A stretch of 30,427 nucleotides of DNA from a virus (IMGVR_UViG_3300031578_000239:1-30427); one strand, 5' to 3'. Positions 515-30,427 are shown, counted from the stretch's first letter. The notes: generated by a model not told the origin, from the letters alone. Numbers and translations are program-made.

Positions 515-1846
515 ATGCAGACTTCAGCCGATCCTCTTGCCGCTCTGCTTTCGGGCAACAGCAAGCCAGAACCCAAGGCGGCCACTCCCGAAGAGATCCG
601 AATGCAGCGGATCAAAGCACTTGCACCGGAGGCAATTATCAACGAAGGCGCCGATCTTGTAGCCATTACCTCCGCGCTGATTAATCAGCAAGCGAAGCTG
701 ATTAACGAGATCGCTAACTTGGAAGGCGTTGAAGACGCCAGCGTTCACGTCCAAGCACTGCGAGGGTTGTCAATTCCAGATCTACAAACGCGCCTAGGTC
801 AGTTGCGATCGCAAACCGATCCCGAGCAAATGACGCGCGGACAACTAATTGCCAAGATCGGGGCGAAGTTGCCACAAGTGACGAAGGAAATGTTTGCCGC
901 GCGTAGTGATAGCGATCTCCGACTAGCTGTAGGCCAGATCCTCGCTGATGAGGCTACCAAAGGCCACGCGGTAAACCCGCCGGAAGTAAAGGCTACAACC
1001 GATCCGACTCTGCCAGCAAAGATCGCCTCTAGCGCCCCGGAAATGCCGCTCGAAGACAAGACAAGCCGCGGGCTTAGGTTTGCCGACGGTTCGTTGTTGT
1101 CTACGGTTACGGTCAAAAGTGGGCTCATGCAAGCCGAGCTGAAACGGATGGGTTGGCCTATTCCGATCGGCGCGGGAAAAGCCGGAAGAATGCGCCAGCT
1201 CTGCCAGTTGGCGCTCCTTGGCGAAGATCCTGGCGATCTCAACAGCTTCGGGCCGTTTGCAGATTCCGGTCCGAAGGTTTCCGGTCCGCCGGAATCGGCC
1301 GATCTGACAACCGAGGATCTGGCACTCAAAAAGAAGTGCATTGACGAAGCGAATGATATCATCGGAGATCTTGATCTGGATAGGCCAACGATACGGATGA
1401 CGGATCCAACCGAAGTTGTCGTAAAGGAGCTGACCGATCTTCGCCTCATTCGCGACGAAGCCGCCAAACCGCAGATTGATCCTCGCCTCATTCGCGACGA
1501 AGCCGCCAAACCGCAGATCGATTGTCCACAAGTGACGCATTCCGTTAAGGTGGCGCAAGCCGGGTTGTTTACTCTCTATGTAGATTGCCGCCCGATGTTC
1601 GATAGCATCCTTGACGCTATCACCTTTGCTTTGCCATTCATGGCAGAGATCGCGAAGTCCGCTGGTGTTCCCCATTACCTTATGTGCCCATATGGGGAGG
1701 GGAGCAACCGCGTTGCCGCTGCCGTTGCGATGAATGCAGACAAGCTGGCGGGCGCGGTTTACGTCAACACAGCGAGCAAAACGGGCGCGCTGATTGCCGA
1801 AGCACTGTCACCGAAAGCATCCTATATCGTGAAGGGAGATAGATAG
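515..1846 (+). CDS. Hypothetical protein, 443 aa, early operon
   Basis: Unrecognised protein. ATG 515 is preferred over ATG 464 because an AAAAAAGG ribosome binding site lies 8 bases upstream and the preceding gene ends at 509. The first ~30 residues (MQTSADPLAALLSGNSKPEP) look disordered. The middle is charged and helical, with a proline-rich linker. The last ~95 residues (from GLFTLYVDC to the end) look like a compact alpha/beta domain with the segments YLMCPYGEGSN and GAVYVNTASKTGALIAEAL. A 14-residue stretch, RLIRDEAAKPQID with one flanking residue, is tandemly duplicated around residues 308-335. It lies first in an operon with small genes and the helicase, so a role in replication or recombination is possible, but no catalytic motif is seen. 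Confidence 0.75.
   Translation: MQTSADPLAALLSGNSKPEPKAATPEEIRMQRIKALAPEAIINEGADLVAITSALINQQAKLINEIANLEGVEDASVHVQALRGLSIPDLQTRLGQLRSQTDPEQMTRGQLIAKIGAKLPQVTKEMFAARSDSDLRLAVGQILADEATKGHAVNPPEVKATTDPTLPAKIASSAPEMPLEDKTSRGLRFADGSLLSTVTVKSGLMQAELKRMGWPIPIGAGKAGRMRQLCQLALLGEDPGDLNSFGPFADSGPKVSGPPESADLTTEDLALKKKCIDEANDIIGDLDLDRPTIRMTDPTEVVVKELTDLRLIRDEAAKPQIDPRLIRDEAAKPQIDCPQVTHSVKVAQAGLFTLYVDCRPMFDSILDAITFALPFMAEIAKSAGVPHYLMCPYGEGSNRVAAAVAMNADKLAGAVYVNTASKTGALIAEALSPKASYIVKGDR
1436..1519 (+). repeat. 42-bp in-frame tandem duplication
   Basis: Two adjacent copies of a 42-bp unit inside the 443-aa gene, with period 42 (for example position 1442 matches 1484). An internal run of about 36 bases is identical. 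The copies differ at 1440 versus 1482, which changes Leu to Pro, and at the edges. Each unit encodes 14 residues including RLIRDEAAKPQID. The near identity suggests a recent duplication. Confidence 0.9.
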
Positions 1847-5898: not shown

Positions 5899-5920
5899 GC
5901 AGTTCAGCTTGGGAGTTAAC

Positions 5921-5970
5921 CAAGCCAAACCGAAGGGAGCCGAAAAATGACGAACCAAACCAACGCCGCC
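5921..5970 (+). repeat. Duplicated leader and gene start, copy 1
   Basis: This 50-base segment contains the ribosome binding site (GAAGGGAGCC) and the first eight codons of the 211-aa alanine-rich gene. It recurs at 6592-6641 with one mismatch, in the same place relative to the next alanine-rich gene. A shorter 19-base part recurs at 6948-6966 before a third gene. The pattern suggests that the genes arose or were inserted as cassettes with a shared leader. Confidence 0.9.
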
Positions 5971-6582
5971 GCACTCGAAGCCCTTGAAGCGCTTGAAGCA
6001 GCTTATGCGGTCCGCGCCGCCGCCCGCGCCGCCGCCTACGCTGCCGAAGCCGCCGCCGCCCGCGCCGCCGTTGATGTTGATAAAGCGGCTCTCGCTGCTA
6101 CCACCACTACCGCAGATGTTTCGGCCTGTAGTGCCTACGCCGCCGCCCGCGCCGCCTATGACGCTGCCGACGCCGCCGCTAGTGACGCACTTGATACGTA
6201 TGACGCAGCCCGCGCCGCCGCCCGCGCCGCCGCCCGCGCCGCCGAAGCCGCCGCCCTCGAAGCCTACGCCGACGCCGACGCCGCCCGCAACGCCGCCCGC
6301 AACGCCGCCCGCAACGCCGCCCGCAATGACATAGCCGCCGCCCTCGAAGCCTACGCCGACGCCGACGCCGACGCCGCCCGCAACGCCGCCCGCGTCGACG
6401 CTCGCGCCGCCCGTGACGCTCGCAACGCCGAAGCCGCCCGCGCCGCCCTCGAAGCCGCCGCCGAAGCCTCCGCCGAAGCCGCCCGCGCCGCCGAAGCCGC
6501 CGCCGAAGCCGCCCGCGCCGCCGCCGACGCCGCCGCCGACGCCGCCAACGCAGCCCACGCCGCCGCCCGCAACGCCAAGTAA
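5947..6582 (+). CDS. Alanine-rich helical repeat protein, 211 aa
   Basis: Starts MTNQTNAAALEALEALEAAY after GAAGGGAG placed 8-9 bases upstream. By my count about 112 of 211 residues are alanine. The rest are mostly Arg, Asp, Glu, Asn and Tyr in AAR/AAD/AAE/AAN patterns. Such a sequence should form one or more long helices. There is no signal peptide, membrane segment or known domain, and a single Cys. Codons are almost all GCC, CGC, GAA and AAC, giving a DNA composition richer in GC than the neighbours and nearly free of GATC and CTAG. The repeats resemble the Ala-rich tail of the protein at the start of the window, but without its N-terminal domain. A structural, DNA-coating or decoy role can only be guessed. 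Confidence 0.75.
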   Translation: MTNQTNAAALEALEALEAAYAVRAAARAAAYAAEAAAARAAVDVDKAALAATTTTADVSACSAYAAARAAYDAADAAASDALDTYDAARAAARAAARAAEAAALEAYADADAARNAARNAARNAARNDIAAALEAYADADADAARNAARVDARAARDARNAEAARAALEAAAEASAEAARAAEAAAEAARAAADAAADAANAAHAAARNAK

Positions 6583-6591
6583 CCTAGCGCC

Positions 6592-6641
6592 CAAGCCAAC
6601 CCGAAGGGAGCCGAAAAATGACGAACCAAACCAACGCCGCC
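6592..6641 (+). repeat. Duplicated leader and gene start, copy 2
   Basis: Matches 5921-5970 with one mismatch in 50 bases, and places an identical ribosome binding site and MTNQTNAA start in front of the 95-aa alanine-rich gene. After the match the second copy has one extra GCC codon and then continues similarly (GCACTCGAAGCCC). Confidence 0.9.
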
Positions 6642-6905
6642 GCCGCACTCGAAGCCCTCGAAGCCGACGCCGCCCACGCCGCCGCCCGCGCCGTTTTTGA
6701 AGCCGCCCGAAACGCTGCTAACGTCGCTTCCGCCAAGGCTACCCGCGCCGCCAAGTCCGCCCGCGCCGCCAAGTCCGCCTATTACGCCGCCCTCGCCAAC
6801 CACGAAGCTGCCATTACCGAAGCCACCAACGCCGCCCGCGTCGCCTCCGAAGCCTATGCAGTTGTTGTTTCTACCTATGCGGCTACCGCCCGCAACGCCA
6901 AGTAG
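6618..6905 (+). CDS. Alanine-rich helical repeat protein, 95 aa
   Basis: A paralogue of the preceding 211-aa protein: the first ~15 residues (MTNQTNAA, ALEALEA) and the last (ARNAK) are the same, and the leader is duplicated. It is about half alanine, with Lys/Ser/Tyr-containing segments in the middle (KSARAAKSAYYAALANHEAA) and a slightly more hydrophobic end (YAVVVSTYAATARNAK). It is predicted to be wholly helical with no recognised domain. It lies 35 bases after the first copy and probably belongs to the same transcript from the promoter at 5870. The shared ends and different middle suggest duplication followed by gain or loss of repeat units. Confidence 0.75.
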   Translation: MTNQTNAAAALEALEADAAHAAARAVFEAARNAANVASAKATRAAKSARAAKSAYYAALANHEAAITEATNAARVASEAYAVVVSTYAATARNAK

Positions 6906-14118: not shown

Positions 14119-14781
14119 ATGGCACGTAATCAAGGCATAGTCATAGTTAACTTTGACGCTGGGCTCTTTAAGCGGGACGTGTTGCGCTTCGCAAAGAAAC
14201 AAGTGCCGTATGCGATAGCTACGGCGTTAAACGCAACGATCCTAGACACTAAAGAGCAACTGATAGAGGATCTACCGAAGACGTTTACGATCCGCTCTGA
14301 TTGGACTGAGAAAGGGATACGTGTAAGGCTCGCCAAAAAAACCAAGCTAGGCGCCAGCGTAGGAACGGTTGATGAATACATGCGGCGGCAAGCCGTTGGC
14401 GACACAAAGAAGCCCAAAGATGCGAGAATGTTGGGGGTTCCGGTCAAAGCAAGGGCGAACCCCAAAACGAAAATTACACCAGCGCTATGGCCAGGCCCTA
14501 TCCAAAGGAAACAAAAGGGCTTCTACCGTGAAACCAAAAGTGGCGGCAAAATGCTGCTAGTCCCTAGGCGCCCAAGGAAGCCGAAGAAAGGCAGAGCGCG
14601 GCGCAAGCGTCGTGCAAACGCGAGCAAGGGAAAGCTCTTGCTTATGTACATCCTCAAATCTAGCATCTATGTACCGAAGCGCTGGCCACTAGAAAAAACG
14701 CTGCATATCGTAGCAACAAAGCGTTGGGTTCCGAATATGGCCAAGGCTTGGAAGCGCGCTCTAGCCAGCAAAAAGCGCTAG
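14119..14781 (+). CDS. Putative phage structural protein, GpZ-like, lone plus-strand gene
   Basis: A 220-aa basic protein read opposite to all neighbouring late genes. Residues ~10-100 (AIATALNATILDTKEQLIED, FTIRSDWTEKGIRVRLAKKT) resemble a family of phage minor structural proteins in which 'ALN.ta' helices are followed by an 'F.(l)R..W..KGIRV..A.K..L.A.V' strand region, such as GpZ-like minor tail proteins. The C-terminus (YVPKRWPLEKTLHIV, WVPNMAKAWKRAL) also fits. A very basic linker (RRPRKPKKGRARRKRRANAS) lies near residue 150. The ATG has a TATGAT hexamer 5 bases upstream and no clear ribosome binding site. Its TAG stop and the TAG of the convergent tail fibre gene share one CTAG palindrome at 14778-14781. 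Structural assignment is tentative. Confidence 0.6.
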   Translation: MARNQGIVIVNFDAGLFKRDVLRFAKKQVPYAIATALNATILDTKEQLIEDLPKTFTIRSDWTEKGIRVRLAKKTKLGASVGTVDEYMRRQAVGDTKKPKDARMLGVPVKARANPKTKITPALWPGPIQRKQKGFYRETKSGGKMLLVPRRPRKPKKGRARRKRRANASKGKLLLMYILKSSIYVPKRWPLEKTLHIVATKRWVPNMAKAWKRALASKKR

Positions 14782-16745
14782 CCTACGTAGCATAGTGCAA
14801 TCCCGTAGCCTCGCTCCGAACCGTATGCACTAACGACTTGCATACATTGGATCGCCTTACCAGCGCCGGGCTCGTTTGCGTGCATTCCAAGCCCTTGCTT
14901 GCCTGGTACAACGAAGCCGCCGGGCTCAACACTAGCGTCCACTAGCACGCGGATTTGACCTAGCAGTCCAACGGCCGTCCACTCTTCCGGGCGCTTGTCA
15001 CGCGGTACATAGGACATTGCAGAATCATATTTCGGGTTGATCAACGCGCGGCCGTCTTCGTCGCAAAGAGGCGCGCCCATTTCATCCCGCAGATACCGAT
15101 CGTGCCAACCAAGCGGCGCGCTGTTCGCCAGCGTCGCGGGCGCTACCGATACCACGCCAAGGATCCGATCGCCAACGCCAGCGATAGCGACGCGCCCTTT
15201 GGCCAGCGTAACGATTGCCCCACGCGGGATCGTTCCTAGCTCGAGGTTTTCAAAGCACTCGGCATAGTCCGCAGTTCCCGCACCAATCGTTCCATCCGAA
15301 TAGATATCACCAGAATCTGATTCGATGCGCCAAGTCTGCCCACCGCTCGTTCCTCCGCAGATCGATCGCGTGTTTGCAACCGTGATCGCTCCGGTTCCAA
15401 AGTCACTAGCCACAACCAGCGTGGAACTGCCCGAAACAGTGAGATCACCAGTGCAACCGATGATCGTTGCGCCCGATCCAGAAGCCAGCGGTCCAACACT
15501 CCCGGTTCCTTTCTGGCTTGTGATTGCTGCGGAAGCGTTGCCGTTTGCCGTAACAGCGCCGCGGCAAGCAATCAAAGCGACCGCTTCCCCACCGCTGATT
15601 GTAGGGATTGCGGTAGTCACGCGGGCGCAAGCTACGATCGCCCCGGCTTCCGAGATTCCGCCGATGATTCCGCCATTACTTGCGCAAATCCACGATCTGC
15701 CGTTGGTGGTATTGATCGTGACATTTCCGCAAGCAACAGCCGCGATGTCCGTCCCTTGCGCGACGCTGACACTATCACAAGCCGCGGCAAGGGAGCGAAC
15801 CGCGGAGGCGCCGATCGTTGTAGGCGAAGCCGTAGAACCATAGCAACCGACGATTGCACTATGAGTGCCTGCGTTGGAACAATCGGCGCCACCTAGCGCT
15901 TGGCCTTCGCTGGCGATCGTGAGAAGGTATGCGCCGCCCGCTATGGTGCTAGCTCGTTTTGAGACTGCAACCATAGAGCTAGGGCTATTGGCTAGGCCGT
16001 TTTCGGCGCCGATTACGGATGAAGCAACGGCACCGGCAAGACTACCACCTGTTGCGCCTATAACAACCGTGTTTGCTGCGCCGCTGGTATCGCTGGATAG
16101 AGAAGCCGCAATGAAAGAGTAATCAGCGCTCGCGATATCGCAACTAGCACTTGAAAGAATACAAGCAGTACTATTGGTGGCTGCGATCGTGCAAGTGTCC
16201 GAAGCTGCGATCACCCTTTCAGTACCAGCGCCCGAAACGATCTGACAACTAGTGGATCCAATAACGGCGCACTGTACACCGGCAACAACGCCAGCCGAAG
16301 ATCCGGCCGCAAAGGCGTTGGTTCCGGTAACAGCAAGTCCATTACAAGCAATAGCTGCGGCTTGCGTGCCAGATACCAGGCAAACATTAGACGCAACAAC
16401 GCTAGCATTCAGCCCATTCGCTTGGCTAGCAATGCAGCCTAGCAGGGTATTGGTATGGGTTGTTGAGCTAACGCCAGTATCTGAGATATCAGACTTCAAG
16501 CCCGCCACTTCGCTGATATTACCAAGCGCCGTTGCGAGCTGGTTATTGCTAGTCTTGCTGAGAATTCCGCCCGTCGCCTCTATTGCGTTGGCGATCTCTT
16601 CTTGGACTGCGTTTAGCCAGTCCGTTGTAACTACGGTTCCGCGAGTGCTGGTGCCAGTGTCCGCCTTGCGGAAATATCCAGGCGTTCCAAGCGCGCTAGG
16701 CGTTGGCAATACTGCAACATTGTCCGGGCCGTCGATTCTGTACAT
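14778..16745 (-). CDS. Tail fibre protein with Peptidase_G2-like C-terminal domain
   Basis: A 655-aa fibre. The N-terminus (MYRIDGPDNVAVLPTPSALG, GTVVTTDWLNAVQEEIANAI) is of the kind found in phage fibre proteins. Residues ~100-470 form a long repetitive Ala/Ser/Gly/Thr-rich region with short beta-strand repeats, which probably trimerise. The last ~170 residues (AGTADYAECFENLE, GAIVTLAKGRVAIAG, GLLGQIRVLVDASVEPG) match the IMC autoproteolytic domain (Peptidase_G2) of phage neck appendage proteins, which acts as an intramolecular chaperone and can cleave itself off after trimer assembly. The start is preceded by AGGGA. It follows the gp48-like gene, where fibre genes lie in Mu-like phages. Receptor binding is inferred. 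Confidence 0.82.
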   Translation of the reverse strand: MYRIDGPDNVAVLPTPSALGTPGYFRKADTGTSTRGTVVTTDWLNAVQEEIANAIEATGGILSKTSNNQLATALGNISEVAGLKSDISDTGVSSTTHTNTLLGCIASQANGLNASVVASNVCLVSGTQAAAIACNGLAVTGTNAFAAGSSAGVVAGVQCAVIGSTSCQIVSGAGTERVIAASDTCTIAATNSTACILSSASCDIASADYSFIAASLSSDTSGAANTVVIGATGGSLAGAVASSVIGAENGLANSPSSMVAVSKRASTIAGGAYLLTIASEGQALGGADCSNAGTHSAIVGCYGSTASPTTIGASAVRSLAAACDSVSVAQGTDIAAVACGNVTINTTNGRSWICASNGGIIGGISEAGAIVACARVTTAIPTISGGEAVALIACRGAVTANGNASAAITSQKGTGSVGPLASGSGATIIGCTGDLTVSGSSTLVVASDFGTGAITVANTRSICGGTSGGQTWRIESDSGDIYSDGTIGAGTADYAECFENLELGTIPRGAIVTLAKGRVAIAGVGDRILGVVSVAPATLANSAPLGWHDRYLRDEMGAPLCDEDGRALINPKYDSAMSYVPRDKRPEEWTAVGLLGQIRVLVDASVEPGGFVVPGKQGLGMHANEPGAGKAIQCMQVVSAYGSERGYGIALCYVG

Positions 16746-24787: not shown

Positions 24788-26293
24788 TTACGTAAGCTGC
24801 AAATGGAATTGGTTTTTAACCGCCAAGACGCGCAACTGATTCTGAAGATCTGGCGGGAGCAAAACATCAAGTCGGTTGGGATCGCCAAGCGGGCGCTCTA
24901 CCGTCACGTTCGCTGCGAAGAGATCGGCATTCTCTACAATGCCGAGTGCTTCAAGGCGCTTGTATTCCGCGATGATCAAGCCCTTTACGGTTTGCGGCGT
25001 TACAGCGTTCGATCCGGAAGGAAGGAACGTGCCATCATTGACGAGCCGAACGCGCGCCAGCTTATTACTAGTCATTGCAGCATAAGCGCGGTTTAGATAC
25101 ATGATCTGAAACAGCGTTTCAGTGTCAAGGTATGAATCATCAGCGCCGCCGAAGGCGTCAAGCTGATACGTAGTGACAAGCCGCTCAATACGTACCTTGT
25201 TCGCTGCGTCAGTATAGAGCGTAGCTACACCGTCAAACAGCAATACGTTACGCTCTAGCTGCGTGAACCGCAGTGCTTTTGGTGCCGGAACGATCCCAAC
25301 AAGCTCCAAAGTCTGAAGCGGATCGCCAGGGTTGTTGCTGAGGCTAGAATAGCAAGCGCCCCAAGCCGCCGCGGACACTTCCCAAGGCTGACTTGGGATC
25401 GGCTCCATACCAAGCAAGAAGCTATGAGGATCGTTGCGCCCGTTCCCGAGCGTACTAAGGTTGCCTACCGTGTCACGCGCGGCCGTGCCAGCATGGCCAT
25501 AGGCTGCATTATGGTATGCCCAACGGCCTGTAGTATGATTATGGAACGCCTCAATGGCATTCAACGAAGCTGCACTCCGGTACGGATGATGCACAAAATC
25601 GAACCGCTCAGAACCGACGATCGCGCCAAGCCCGGTAATATCTGGATCGGTAGCGCCAGCAACCGTTTTTGTCAGACTCGTTACCGTGATTCCCGCAGGC
25701 AAAGCCTCGCCACCAGACTCCCCGAGCAAGTTGACTTGGTGGTTGATATGATCGGAAAACTCGGCTTTGTGCTTCGCGATCGTGACGATATCCGATCCGG
25801 TTCCGCCCGCCGTAACGCTGAGATCTAGATCCGCATTGATAGCCGCGCGAAGCGCCGTAGCTACCGTGGCGGAAGTATCAGTTGCGGTTACTGGCACGTT
25901 TACCAGCTTACCGCCAATGTAATAGCTAAACACGCCGTCCGCTGTAGCCGTGCCGGCAATAGTAAGCGTATGCTCGCTAGCTACGCCAGCGCCCGCGTCA
26001 GCATACGGGACTGCCCAGATCTCAGCTTGCAAGTTGTTGCTGCGGAACGCTCCGATCGCTTCCGCCAGCTCGCTACCAGCGCCAAACAAGCTAGCATCTT
26101 GCGATCGCGAATTGCTGCGGATCAAATCCTGCGGGGTTGCAGTGCCAGCGCCGCCGCCCGCAGTGATCATATTGCCAACAAAGAGCGCGGCGGAAGCACC
26201 AACGATCTGGCTTCCCGCCTGCGAAGAATCCATTTCCAAGAAGAAAAGCGGAGTACGCAAACTACCAGCCGCGGGAATCGTATTGAAATCCAT
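24788..26293 (-). CDS. Tail sheath protein, Mu gpL (gp39)-like
   Basis: A 501-aa contractile tail sheath protein. The N-terminus has TPLFFLEMDSSQAG and a loop GNMITAGGGAGTATPQDLIR. It continues with NNLQAEIWAVPYADAGAG near residue 88, FVHHPYRSAASLNAIEAFHN near residue 230 and NVLLFDGVATLYTDAANKVR near residue 345. ERLVTTYQLDAFGGADDSYL near residue 371 and RLDVLLPPDLQNQLRVLAVK at the C-terminus are the handshake and core strands of the family. The presence of sheath and tube shows a myovirus-type tail. The start is in the GGTTAAGCTATG junction after the DUF2635 gene. Confidence 0.92.
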   Translation of the reverse strand: MDFNTIPAAGSLRTPLFFLEMDSSQAGSQIVGASAALFVGNMITAGGGAGTATPQDLIRSNSRSQDASLFGAGSELAEAIGAFRSNNLQAEIWAVPYADAGAGVASEHTLTIAGTATADGVFSYYIGGKLVNVPVTATDTSATVATALRAAINADLDLSVTAGGTGSDIVTIAKHKAEFSDHINHQVNLLGESGGEALPAGITVTSLTKTVAGATDPDITGLGAIVGSERFDFVHHPYRSAASLNAIEAFHNHTTGRWAYHNAAYGHAGTAARDTVGNLSTLGNGRNDPHSFLLGMEPIPSQPWEVSAAAWGACYSSLSNNPGDPLQTLELVGIVPAPKALRFTQLERNVLLFDGVATLYTDAANKVRIERLVTTYQLDAFGGADDSYLDTETLFQIMYLNRAYAAMTSNKLARVRLVNDGTFLPSGSNAVTPQTVKGLIIAEYKRLEALGIVENADLFAANVTVERPLGDPNRLDVLLPPDLQNQLRVLAVKNQFHLQLT

Positions 26294-26549: not shown

Positions 26550-27119
26550 CTAGGTTAGATCTGGCCTGATTGTGATTGTTGGACTGCCAGCAATACCGGG
26601 CTTGACGGTTATGTCAAGCACACTAAGGGCGCCGTCGCTAGCGATCGGGTTTTCATACGTATATGCTTCGTCGAGCAACATTTGAAACTCAACGGCTACG
26701 TGCCCACGAAGATCCAAGCCCGCGCCGCTTTGTCCCTTCTGTACGCTGGCGCCTTGCCACTTTCGGATCGATGTCATCAAATCGCGATAGCTGAAGATCG
26801 CAACCTTGATAGCTTGCTCCATATCGTCGATTGCGTCACCTATAGCTTCGTCCATATCATCAAGCGCTTTGCTTGTGTCAACTACAACAGTTGCCGCGCA
26901 AACGATCCTCTCTACCTTGGCGAAGCTAGAATGGTGCGAAATGGACTTACTGTCAGAACCGGGCGAAAAGACGTTGACGGCCGGAACGTCATCGGCTGGA
27001 AACTCAGTGCCTCGCGTTGACACCACGTTACCGCCAGCGATACCCTTAGCAATCAGCCTAGCGACAAACGCTTTGCGGATCGCTTTAGGATCTGGCGTAA
27101 TGGCAACGGCTAGTGTCAA
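26550..27119 (-). CDS. Tail protein, Mu gp37-like
   Basis: A 189-aa protein of the phage gp37 family, probably a tail-terminator-like protein at the head end of the tail. It starts with TTG 27119, which overlaps the TGA of the connector gene (TTGA), and AAGGTG lies about 7 bases upstream. The family pattern is ERIVCAATVVVDTSKALDDM near residue 65, DAIDDMEQAIKVAIF near residue 95 and HVAVEFQMLLDEAYTY near residue 139. It precedes DUF2635 and the sheath gene as in Mu. Confidence 0.78.
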   Translation of the reverse strand: MTLAVAITPDPKAIRKAFVARLIAKGIAGGNVVSTRGTEFPADDVPAVNVFSPGSDSKSISHHSSFAKVERIVCAATVVVDTSKALDDMDEAIGDAIDDMEQAIKVAIFSYRDLMTSIRKWQGASVQKGQSGAGLDLRGHVAVEFQMLLDEAYTYENPIASDGALSVLDITVKPGIAGSPTITIRPDLT

Positions 27120-27481
27120 GCGTGGTCACCTTGGATCGATTGCAGCATAACAGCGCCGAAGCCGTCAAAGTGCGTTTCGATCACAGTATACTTCTGGCCA
27201 GCAAACCTACCAGATAGCAGAGTGTATCGATCTCCCCGTTGCGGGATATTCACCAGATCTTCTAGAACGATCTCTAGCATAGGCTTTCGATCATTAATCT
27301 GCATTCCGTCAATTTCTACGGTTACCAGATAGGCTGAATCAAATACGCCGTAAAGGATCCCGCCCGTTGGCGTTGTAATCGTGGGCGTTCCGCCCTTCGG
27401 CGTATAGCTAATCGAAGTCTTCCAAACCCGCAAGTTAAGGCGGTTTGTCAAGCGTTCGATTGTGTCTCTAGGGTCAGACAT
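27116..27481 (-). CDS. Putative head-tail connector protein
   Basis: A 121-aa protein starting at ATG 27481, which overlaps the end of the upstream fibre-like gene by eight bases. A start at 27496 is also possible. Segments GILYGVFDSAYLVTVEIDGM near residue 40, PMLEIVLEDLVNIPQRGDRY near residue 65 and GQKYTVIETHFDGFGAVMLQ near residue 95 resemble lambda gpFII-like head-tail joining (stopper) proteins. Position between the virion surface genes and gp37-like agrees with a connector. Resemblance is recalled by pattern, so moderate certainty. Confidence 0.62.
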   Translation of the reverse strand: MSDPRDTIERLTNRLNLRVWKTSISYTPKGGTPTITTPTGGILYGVFDSAYLVTVEIDGMQINDRKPMLEIVLEDLVNIPQRGDRYTLLSGRFAGQKYTVIETHFDGFGAVMLQSIQGDHA

Positions 27482-28763
27482 TACGCGCCGACACACTCAT
27501 TTCTTGCACTGTCAACTTGTTTCCGCCGATCGTGGTATTACGCGCCCAAATCGTGATCTGGATATCGCCTCCGCTGGCGTCTACCGGAGCAGCCGAAACC
27601 ATACTGCTATTGCCAATGTCGGAAGCGTTAGCGTAACGGCGGGATAGAACAGGCGTTACGATTGTTGATCCGCCGTCTTGAGACCATCCGATCTCAATAT
27701 CTTGATTAGTGGCGTTGACACCGGCGCTTGCATGAATGTCAACCTCCACAACGCCGTTAAAGCCGCTTCCTATGGTGATACGATCGTTGGCTTGATCGGC
27801 TACGAAACTTCCGGCGCTGTAAGCGTCAGAGTCAAAAGTTGCAACTTGATACCATTGATTAAGCGTAGTTAGCGCAAAGTCAGTAGAGTTGCCGGACATG
27901 GTTATAGACGCTCTTGATTCCTCTAGTGCGTCCAATTTCGCCTTATCCGTACCAGACAATAGCCCAGCGTTGCCGCTCGCGACGGCAAGGGGTTTGGCTA
28001 GGCGCTCGATACCAAAAAAGGGACCAATCACAAAATCCCGACTAATCTCGGACAACTCTGCCAGAACGAGCGTAAAGAAGAAGTGCCAACCAGTTAACGC
28101 GATTGGTGTATACGGATCGCCCTCGCTATCAAAGTTGCCTTCAAAAAAGCGCAACGTGTAGGGTCCGGTTGTGTCCCTAGCTGGCGTTGTGATGATAGTG
28201 AAGATCACGCGCGGCTTATCAGGATCCGTAACCCCTTGGACTAGAGACAAAGTAGCATAAGAAAGCACAACCCCATCATAAGTGCCTTCATCCTCAAGTG
28301 TTTCCAGCGTTACTCTTCCCGCTACCGTGTTATATGCGCCTCGCGTTCCGTCGCTTGTTACCTCGAGCAAAACCGGAATTCCGGCAACTTCGCCGTGCCC
28401 TTCTACGCCTGGTACGTTTGAGAAATTCCAAGCGGCTTCCGCCGTAATGTCAACCGAAGTGACACCCGCGAGATCTAGTATTCCGCCAGGTTGGGCACCA
28501 ACTACCATCTTACTCGCGGAGGTTGCGCCTACATTGGCGGGAGTATGCGCCGAAGCCGAAGCCTCGTGCTCCAATACATCAACGCGGACCCAATCAGTGT
28601 CAAGCGCACCAGTCTTGCGCCACTCGGCGGATCCATCTTCCAACTCTGCCTTGGATCCTAGGCCAGCCGCCAACCCGTCACTTGCCGGATCGGATCCAAC
28701 TGCCAAAATATAACGGATCGCGCTCTGCCCGAAAGTAACGCGGTCAACGATTACAGTAGCCAT
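27474..28763 (-). CDS. Fibre-like protein A with C1q-like C-terminal domain
   Basis: A 429-aa protein. The first ~80 residues (MATVIVDRVTFGQSAIRYIL to HTPANVGA) are the same as in the two genes upstream. HTPAxVGA is a recurring phage fibre motif. A beta-rich domain follows (~85-265), then the fibre-type sequence GNAGLLSGTDKAKLDALEES near residue 275. A last domain of about 140 residues has a strand pattern like C1q/TNF jelly-roll heads (NQWYQVATFDSDAYSAGSFV, GFNGVVEVDIHASAG). ATG 28763 follows AGAGGGATC, the same leader as gene B. Location between head genes and connector suggests virion surface or host-receptor function, by inference. Confidence 0.68.
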   Translation of the reverse strand: MATVIVDRVTFGQSAIRYILAVGSDPASDGLAAGLGSKAELEDGSAEWRKTGALDTDWVRVDVLEHEASASAHTPANVGATSASKMVVGAQPGGILDLAGVTSVDITAEAAWNFSNVPGVEGHGEVAGIPVLLEVTSDGTRGAYNTVAGRVTLETLEDEGTYDGVVLSYATLSLVQGVTDPDKPRVIFTIITTPARDTTGPYTLRFFEGNFDSEGDPYTPIALTGWHFFFTLVLAELSEISRDFVIGPFFGIERLAKPLAVASGNAGLLSGTDKAKLDALEESRASITMSGNSTDFALTTLNQWYQVATFDSDAYSAGSFVADQANDRITIGSGFNGVVEVDIHASAGVNATNQDIEIGWSQDGGSTIVTPVLSRRYANASDIGNSSMVSAAPVDASGGDIQITIWARNTTIGGNKLTVQEMSVSARNV

Positions 28764-28778
28764 TGTGGATCCCTCTAA
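28526..28778 (-). repeat. N-terminal module repeat, copy A
   Basis: 253 bases holding the leader and N-terminal codons of gene A. They match 29341-29593 with 4 mismatches, all silent (offset 815). 28540-28763 matches 30134-30357 with 4 mismatches (offset 1594). Similarity stops at the end of the HTPANVGA codons. Confidence 0.95.
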
Positions 28779-29578
28779 CTCGCTGGCAGCTTGTTCCTGT
28801 AGATAAGCCACGTTCCATAGTAGTCGAGCAACGATATACCGGCCGGATCCGCCGTCACTTCAAATTGTAGTGCAAGGCCATAGCTGCCAGTTATGTACTC
28901 CACAAGCTCTTCTGGCAACGCATAAAAAGCCGTATGCCAACGCACGCCGCCCGCGCCATTGTCAGCGCCGCGCTTTGCGGCCGTGTTGTGCGCCTCGTCA
29001 TAGTAGGCGTCTACGTTGCCTAGTATTGCCGTTGGGGCGCCCATAGCCGCGCCGTCTTGTGGCATTAGCTTTGCGTAGATCACGGCTTTTGCGTCAACAA
29101 CTGGGCCTGTAATGATCTTGTAGACGCAAACGAAACCGAGCAACGCAATGCCAGTGCCAGCGCCGGCGCGCGTTGGAAGTGGGACGCTGTTATACCAAAC
29201 GGTATTTACAGCGCTAGCCGTTCGCCTCTTTGCTGGATTGCCTCCGCCACCATATACCGTGTTCCAAGCGCCGCCAACGTAGGATCCTTCGATTACGTCG
29301 ATCCAGATCCGCCCGTCGTCCTTATGCAAAGCAGTTGCCGCGCCTACATTGGCGGGAGTATGCGCCGAAGCCGAAGCCTCGTGCTCCAATACATCAACGC
29401 GGACCCAATCAGTGTCAAGCGCACCAGTCTTGCGCCACTCGGCGGATCCATCTTCCAACTCTGCCTTGGATCCTAGGCCAGCCGCCAACCCATCACTTGC
29501 CGGATCGGATCCAACTGCCAAGATATAGCGGATCGCACTCTGCCCGAAAGTAACGCGGTCAACGATTACAGTAGCCAT
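28775..29578 (-). CDS. Fibre-like protein B, shared N-terminal domain
   Basis: A 267-aa paralogue of the neighbouring genes. Residues 1-79 are identical to protein A, while the remaining ~188 residues (RIWIDVIEGSYVGGAWNTVY, LLGFVCVYKIITGPVVDA, VRWHTAFYALPEELVEYI) share no visible similarity with A or C. The C-terminal part is beta-rich and probably a distinct binding head. AGAGGGATCCACA before ATG is identical to the leader of gene A. The shared N-terminus probably anchors or trimerises each protein on the virion. Confidence 0.68.
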   Translation of the reverse strand: MATVIVDRVTFGQSAIRYILAVGSDPASDGLAAGLGSKAELEDGSAEWRKTGALDTDWVRVDVLEHEASASAHTPANVGAATALHKDDGRIWIDVIEGSYVGGAWNTVYGGGGNPAKRRTASAVNTVWYNSVPLPTRAGAGTGIALLGFVCVYKIITGPVVDAKAVIYAKLMPQDGAAMGAPTAILGNVDAYYDEAHNTAAKRGADNGAGGVRWHTAFYALPEELVEYITGSYGLALQFEVTADPAGISLLDYYGTWLIYRNKLPAS

Positions 29579-29593
29579 TGTGGATCCCTCTAA
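29341..29593 (-). repeat. N-terminal module repeat, copy B
   Basis: Matches copy A (28526-28778) in 249 of 253 bases, including the ribosome binding site and the stop region of the upstream gene (ctctaa on the plus strand). Confidence 0.95.
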
Positions 29594-30357
29594 GTGAGAT
29601 CTTGCACAAGCGCCTTGACAACGCTAGTCTTCTCAGTTCCGTTAGTTGCCGTTGGACTAACAAAGCGCCACTTGTAACGCTCGGCTTCGCCAGTTGCGTG
29701 GTAAACCTCAACGCCAAGCGAGCTAGCGGAAGCGTTGTAACTGACTTGCATAACCCTACCATCCCGCGTTGGAATTAGTAGGTTGGATAGAGCAAAGTCA
29801 GATTGCAGAAAACGCGCGCCTTCGGCTGCGTCTTCGTCATAGTAGAGCTTTCCAGCGCCTTGGTTTGTAACCGGATCTGCGTCGGCATTCATAAAGAAAC
29901 GATCCGTAGCAACGCCTACTGCAACCGGATCGTGATTCGTCGAGTTTGCCCAAAGTTGGGCAAAGCCTCCGCCCATAGACCAGACTGGCGAAATGAAAAC
30001 TTGGGGATTGCCAGCCGCCCCCGCGTCATGCACAAGATCTACAGATAGTGCATCATTCTGCGGATTCTGGCCAGCAACGGCGTTTGCCGCCGCGGTTGCG
30101 CCGGTGCCAGAAGGATCCGATCCCACTTCCGCCGGAGTATGCGCCGAAGCCGAAGCCTCGTGCTCCAATACATCAACGCGGACCCAATCAGTGTCAAACG
30201 CGCCAGTCTTGCGCCACTCGGCGGATCCATCTTCCAACTCTGCCTTGGATCCTAGGCCAGCCGCCAACCCGTCACTTGCCGGATCGGATCCAGCTGCCAA
30301 GATATAACGGATCGCGCTCTGCCCGAAAGTAACGCGGTCAACGATTACAGTAGCCAT
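29590..30357 (-). CDS. Fibre-like protein C, shared N-terminal domain
   Basis: A 255-aa paralogue. The first ~74 residues are the same as A and B except for Val22Ala and Leu53Phe in the shared part. The C-terminal ~175 residues (WSMGGGFAQLWANSTNHDPV, DFALSNLLIPTRDGRVMQVS, LGVEVYHATGEAERYKWRFV) are unrelated to A and B. The ribosome binding site is AGAGG in a different leader, downstream of a hairpin at 30368-30388. It is the first of the three transcribed leftward. Virion decoration or host binding is inferred from the fibre-like module and position. Confidence 0.68.
   Translation of the reverse strand: MATVIVDRVTFGQSAIRYILAAGSDPASDGLAAGLGSKAELEDGSAEWRKTGAFDTDWVRVDVLEHEASASAHTPAEVGSDPSGTGATAAANAVAGQNPQNDALSVDLVHDAGAAGNPQVFISPVWSMGGGFAQLWANSTNHDPVAVGVATDRFFMNADADPVTNQGAGKLYYDEDAAEGARFLQSDFALSNLLIPTRDGRVMQVSYNASASSLGVEVYHATGEAERYKWRFVSPTATNGTEKTSVVKALVQDLT
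30134..30357 (-). repeat. N-terminal module repeat, copy C
   Basis: 224 bases matching copy A with 4 mismatches, two of which change an amino acid. The match ends at the start codon, since the leader of gene C is different. Confidence 0.95.
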
Positions 30358-30427
30358 AGCGCCTAACCTCTGTTAGCGCCTAACAGAGCGCTAGGCGCTG
30401 GCCTAGTCCCTAGGTAATGGTAACGCC
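30358..30427. other. Intergenic hairpin and window end
   Basis: A perfect 8-bp inverted repeat (CTCTGTTA at 30368-30375 and TAACAGAG at 30381-30388) with a 5-base loop GCGCC. No T run follows on either strand, so it is a weak terminator candidate or a protein-binding or RNA-processing site between gene C and the gene before it. On the minus strand the frame reading GVTIT followed by TAG at 30412-30410 could be the end of an upstream late gene, but too little is present to call it. Confidence 0.4.

Follow-up and report, generated by a model that had tools for sequence, protein, structure and literature searches.

Three tandem phage genes joining a near-identical N-terminal module to unrelated C-terminal domains: candidate accessory head fibres

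Introduction

Invertible tail-fibre cassettes, such as the Gin cassette of phage Mu and the Cin cassette of phage P1, join a constant N-terminal part to alternative C-terminal parts by means of inverted copies and a site-specific recombinase. Hoc of T4-like phages combines a conserved capsid-binding domain with variable outer domains; two Hoc proteins are found in Muldoon and in PG7, and the longer Hoc of PG7 carries an N-terminal capsid-binding domain and a GDSL esterase head (PMC10385173). The receptor-binding gene cluster of Ackermannviridae encodes TSP1–TSP4, whose N-terminal structural domains are conserved and whose C-terminal binding domains vary, and the addition of a fifth tsp gene led to recombination between the tsp genes and to chimeras (PMC11414711). 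Phage 7-7-1, which has a contractile tail, carries capsid fibres that were proposed to reach host surface structures (PMC12796354).

Here, we analysed a complete IMG/VR record of 30,427 nt (hereafter, the window), a linear fragment of metagenome origin from a contractile-tailed phage. It contains three adjacent genes that start with almost the same module and continue into unrelated domains. We named them A, B and C in the order of transcription (minus strand); the B/C pair of this study corresponds to B/A in a first-pass annotation of the same DNA.

Like A/B/C, the Hoc capsid fibres consist of one conserved domain and varied outer domains. However, the conserved domain of Hoc is usually C-terminal and its outer domains are Ig-like, whereas the part shared by A, B and C is N-terminal, has a different sequence, is nearly identical at the DNA level and is present in three tandem copies. 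No match to the Hoc capsid-binding or Ig-like families was detected in A, B and C using Pfam and PHROGs. The branched tailspikes of Ackermannviridae resemble A/B/C in their clustered genes, conserved N-termini and variable C-termini, but they are large tail/baseplate proteins with defined anchor and XD domains, whereas A, B and C are small, lie in the head region and share one short module; general Pfam and PHROGs profiles gave no family match to XD/TD (gp10-like) domains in these proteins. The head fibres of 7-7-1 also belong to a contractile-tailed phage and are likened to A/B/C by description. Unlike the Mu and P1 cassettes, the A/B/C copies are all in direct orientation, each has its own start and the genes are intact. 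Literature searches for arrays of tail fibres with identical N-termini, or for DUF2190 decoration, yielded nothing. The one-module, many-heads principle is already known from the Hoc proteins and the Ackermannviridae spikes; what is new here is that three genes in tandem carry a short, near-identical module and occupy the slot between the capsid cement and head closure genes.

Results

Three adjacent genes share a near-identical start

A, B and C are all complete genes with separate starts and ribosome-binding sites (Table 1). Gene C starts at the ATG at 28763 rather than at the GTG at 28811. Over the stretch from 14 nt ahead of the ATG through nt 239, B and C were identical at 249 of 253 bases, and the four differences (nt 42, 51, 57 and 87) were all silent. 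A and C were identical at 220 of 224 bases, with two silent changes and two replacements (V22A and L54F), while A and B differed by four silent changes and the same two replacements. The unit shared by B and C, which comprises the ribosome-binding site and the N-module, opens at the stop codon that ends the gene ahead of it (TTAGAGGGATCCACA-ATG). The similarity ended at codon 74 in A and at codons 79–80 in B and C, beyond which there was no DNA or protein likeness, the best Smith-Waterman comparison between the C-termini giving a Z of only 1.9. This repeat family (D4) has exactly three copies in the window, all direct and on one strand, with no inverted copies there. The length and degree of identity of the shared N-module exclude a chance origin. 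These counts, including the four silent changes, reproduce those of the first-pass annotation, whose description of three adjacent paralogues with a conserved N-terminal module and unrelated C-terminal parts was thereby confirmed.

Table 1. Features of the A–C locus and of the genes used to place it (coordinates in the window)
Feature	Coordinates	Strand	Description
RNA hairpin	30353..30402	-	Near-perfect, 3-nt loop; between the cement gene and A
Gene A	29590..30357	-	255 aa; N-module (residues 1 to ~76) and unique C-terminal domain
N-module copy in A	30134..30357	-	224 nt in register
Repeat copy in B	29340..29592	-	14-nt leader with Shine-Dalgarno and 239 nt coding
Gene B	28775..29578	-	267 aa; N-module (residues 1–80) and unique C-terminal domain
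Repeat copy in C	28525..28777	-	14-nt leader and 239-nt coding unit; begins at the stop codon of B
Gene C	27474..28763	-	429 aa; N-module (1–80), middle (~81–260), GLLSGTDKAKLDALEE linker (~265–285), head (~286–429)
Head closure protein (lambda gpFII-like, Hc1)	27116..27481	-	Pfam Phage_attach 3.7e-7; phrog_82 7.7e-7
Tail sheath	24788..26293	-	phrog_165 2.1e-142; shows a contractile-tail phage
Tail fibre gene; Peptidase_G2 intramolecular-chaperone autocleavage domain at its end	14778-16745	-	Pfam 5.3e-41; with baseplate genes

The hairpin that precedes A pairs the Shine-Dalgarno sequence of this gene (AGAGG) and part of its AUG. The 88-nt stretch containing it had a folding energy of -38.5 kcal/mol (z -3.5), and none of 200 shuffles was as stable. 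It was rejected as a standard terminator, having no U-run. For B and C, the repeat itself supplies a ribosome-binding site. Judged from its predicted pairing, the hairpin could hold the output of A below that of the cement gene.

The C-terminal domains

The C-termini of A, B and C have no relatives in IMG/VR beyond the same virus, in the phage collection or among PDB sequences. Gene A had no match in Pfam, PHROGs, PDB sequences or the phage collection, and its copy in a second contig (L004) was 100% identical; gene B gave no significant matches in Pfam, PHROGs, the phage collection, PDB sequences or IMG/VR beyond the same virus. No relatives of gene C were found in plasmids, and its head alone produced only chance-level matches to phages. 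The GLLSGTDKAKLDALEE linker of C is presumably a motif of phage fibre proteins.

The last 144 residues of C, modelled without an alignment, were predicted with low confidence to be all-beta (pLDDT 48, pTM 0.41); the full-length model of C, also made without an alignment, had a mean pLDDT of 34 and was left out of the fold searches. The best Foldseek/VIA-align match of this low-confidence head model was the short tail fibre of cyanophage A-1(L) (Z 9.8 over 134 residues, rmsd 3.2), followed by a chain of the A4 portal-tail complex (Z 9.7). The TNF-like lectins PLTL (Z 8.0) and BC2L-C (Z 7.9) and a C-terminal domain of BclA were among the next, but CBM and other beta-sandwiches scored nearly as high. 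The best fold matches of this part of C are thus the jelly-roll fibre heads of cyanophages A-1(L) and A-4L, at 12–15% identity to a low-confidence model, and these are tail fibre proteins. The curated C1q profile of Pfam had no match in gene C at E<=1. The proposal that one C-terminal domain is C1q-like receives moderate support in C from these matches, suggesting that the head of C may resemble the C1q/TNF-like jelly-roll phage adhesins.

The genes occupy a slot between the cement and head closure genes

Upstream of A, the second contig encodes the large terminase subunit, gpW/Ad1, a lambda-type portal, a protease-capsid fusion (779 aa) and Phage_cement_2 (DUF2190). Downstream of C, the window encodes the head closure protein, tail terminator, sheath, tube, tape measure and baseplate genes, some of which we take to be such from their position and from general knowledge of tail operons of this kind. 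The likely ATG of the head closure gene overlaps the stop codon of C (ATGTCTGA), so C belongs to that gene block. The location of A, B and C in an operon for virion structure was supported, and, as for capsid decoration or head fibre genes, they lie in the head module by the capsid and cement genes. A search for closer relatives with head closure and sheath as markers returned none. The cement protein itself (L004, 5247-5948) has a C-terminal extension of ~120 residues, which may be a surface extension in its own right; no relatives of this extension were found in named phages.

We compared this arrangement with the head modules of phages that have a related capsid or cement protein. In seven of them (Bordetella PBb001, Microcystis yong2, Rhodobacter RcMamaDuck, Pseudomonas LPPA33, Vibrio 1.049.O, Vibrio 2.096.O and Shewanella 1/44), the connector genes come straight after the cement gene or are separated from it by small genes at most. 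In the cyanophage Synechococcus MinM1, the cement-connector stretch holds several extra genes before a head closure (Hc1) match, including those for 176-aa and 535-aa proteins without family matches, which are surface-like and unrelated to A, B and C. These comparisons mark the position as an accessory slot in the head module.

We give a probability of about 0.5 to the reading that A, B and C are accessory head fibres or appendages with a common attachment/trimerisation module and differing binding heads. No homologue of A, B or C was found in named phages, so the assignment to the head derives solely from gene position. Neck, collar or tail proteins can likewise be encoded by additional genes in a head module, and A, B and C might form whiskers or side fibres where portal and tail meet, with the N-module docking to the connector or upper tail. 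The genes directly precede those for head closure and the tail terminator, C overlapping the former, and both the motif relatives described below and the best fold matches of the C head are mostly tail fibres. However, the genes also directly follow the cement gene, which is the usual site of capsid decoration genes, and the phage has a separate Peptidase_G2 tail fibre gene that sits with the baseplate genes. We therefore consider such neck or tail fibres a serious but unlikely alternative to head fibres.

The N-module belongs to a motif family and is under constraint

Scanning of viral contigs for W-x-K-T-G-xxx-T-D-W identified ~12 proteins that share the pattern DP..G.G..A..GS......W.KTG...TDW. 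Their alignment (A1) had 11 invariant columns over nine sequences, with the A/B/C family in register, and the N-module matched L022 with a BLASTP value of 2e-5 (single comparison). Four proteins (L017, L021, L022 and L036) carry the motif at the N-terminus, and three carry it internally (L019, L027 and, twice, L038); in L015, L026, Loki gp21, C171 gp08 and Sour gp22 it lies at the extreme C-terminal end. The matches in the named phages (Acinetobacter phage Loki, Pseudomonas phage C171 and Gordonia phage Sour) were weak, with E values of 0.008 to 0.5 for a consensus query. Where any match exists, the motif proteins or their neighbours match tail fibre and virion structural families. No family model for the WxKTGxxxTDW motif was found, and a genome scan with the motif alignment gave no confirmed relative. 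The N-module is thus a building block that recurs generally among phage fibres.

These varied positions are what would be expected if the N-module were a folding or trimerisation element, with the proteins being held by their C-terminal parts or by one another in a mixed complex. Against this, the N-module is the only part common to A, B and C and stands at the start of each, and its being kept identical is most simply explained by a shared site of attachment; we regard a purely folding role as improbable. Since the motif is C-terminal or internal in other phage proteins, the anchor role in A, B and C is something that we infer, and it is plausible. The fixed anchor proposed by the first-pass annotation thus stands as far as the common N-module is concerned, but not as to anchoring, as the same motif lies elsewhere at a C-terminal tip or mid-fibre.

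Again, the near-identity might have a neutral history, in which a recent tandem duplication was followed by swapping of the C-termini through recombination and the likeness reflects recency only. The changes are indeed few (4–6 per pair), and the three copies follow one another in the same orientation, with a B/C unit that extends over the leader. Conversely, the four synonymous and zero non-synonymous changes of B/C have a P of 0.004 under neutrality, indicating that the protein sequence of the module is under selection; A/B (four silent, two replacement) is likewise biased (P 0.04), while A/C alone is not significant (P 0.26). The earlier view that the module is kept homogeneous thus holds at the protein level, and recency as the whole explanation has little probability.

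Recombination between the copies

Recombinational switching is possible because any crossover between modules keeps the reading frame intact. As there are no inverted copies and no recognised site-specific recombinase (no invertase was recognised among the ORFs scanned in this incomplete record), ordinary homologous recombination between direct repeats would be the only route available for it. An invertible cassette was rejected since inverted copies are lacking, a diversity-generating retroelement since the repeat is constant and not hypervariable, and silent partial cassettes since none of the three genes is truncated or lacks a start and ribosome-binding site of its own. In a working head cassette system, leader and N-module units would recombine such that binding heads are gained, lost or exchanged by virions or lineages while the products stay intact and attachable; to us this is a long shot.

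The repeat in a second contig

The contig IMGVR_UViG_3300031669_001933 (L004/L041) matches the window with 100% identity across 1,063 nt. It contains A joined to the start of B and ends 214 nt into B; the junction from B to C was seen in the window's contig only. Among the exact repeats of the window, only a 152-nt run shared by B and C, which starts at nt 88, exceeds 127 nt, and the second contig ends exactly 127 nt into this run. From how de Bruijn assemblers work, and assuming one with k = 127, this is where assembly would be expected to halt at a two-way repeat, which makes an artefact unlikely and upholds the repeats as genuine. That the three copies are a mis-join of different phages or strains is thus very improbable: this is a metagenome contig with near-identical repeats and only one contig spans B to C, but a second contig with the A-to-B join, a contig stop that is expected if the sample has both contexts, three intact reading frames, and regular gene spacing and stop/start overlaps all speak against it.

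Other features of the window

GATC is ~3.2-fold over-represented throughout the window (390 sites versus ~121 expected from first-order composition), as is GGATCC (37 versus 6 expected), and CTGCAG, GAGCTC, ACGCGT and GCATGC are absent, which points to a history of modification/restriction or to an unusual pattern of mutation. Ala-rich, highly repetitive ORFs were found at 268-428, 5947-6582 and 6618-6905 (plus strand). The gene starts at 5920-5972 and 6591-6643 are 98% identical over 53 nt, leader included, and represent another duplicated gene start with a different continuation. A 460-aa ORF contains an in-frame 42-nt tandem duplication at 1429-1512 (plus strand; LIRDEAAKPQID repeated).

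Discussion

If A, B and C are accessory head fibres, the shared N-terminal module would attach each protein to a common site on the virion and/or nucleate its trimer, while the differing C-terminal domains would bind the host surface or the environment and might broaden the host range. In C, the binding domain would be a C1q/TNF-like jelly-roll, a type of head that phage fibres carry at their tips. The three genes, set in the slot between the cement and head closure genes, would have arisen by duplication of a leader and N-module unit ahead of unrelated heads, and the copies would have stayed alike through selection on the module, possibly together with homologous recombination between them. 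Attachment, trimerisation, incorporation into the virion and surface binding by the heads are all steps that we infer.

Among phages, the known "one anchor, many heads" systems are mostly tail fibres or spikes. With a short, near-identical module repeated in tandem in the head region, A, B and C would illustrate how several different surface binders can be carried at one type of site. As the module is self-contained and has ~75 residues, its attachment is directly testable. More broadly, the set points to a short fibre motif, WxKTGxxxTDW, that recurs in many phage structural proteins.
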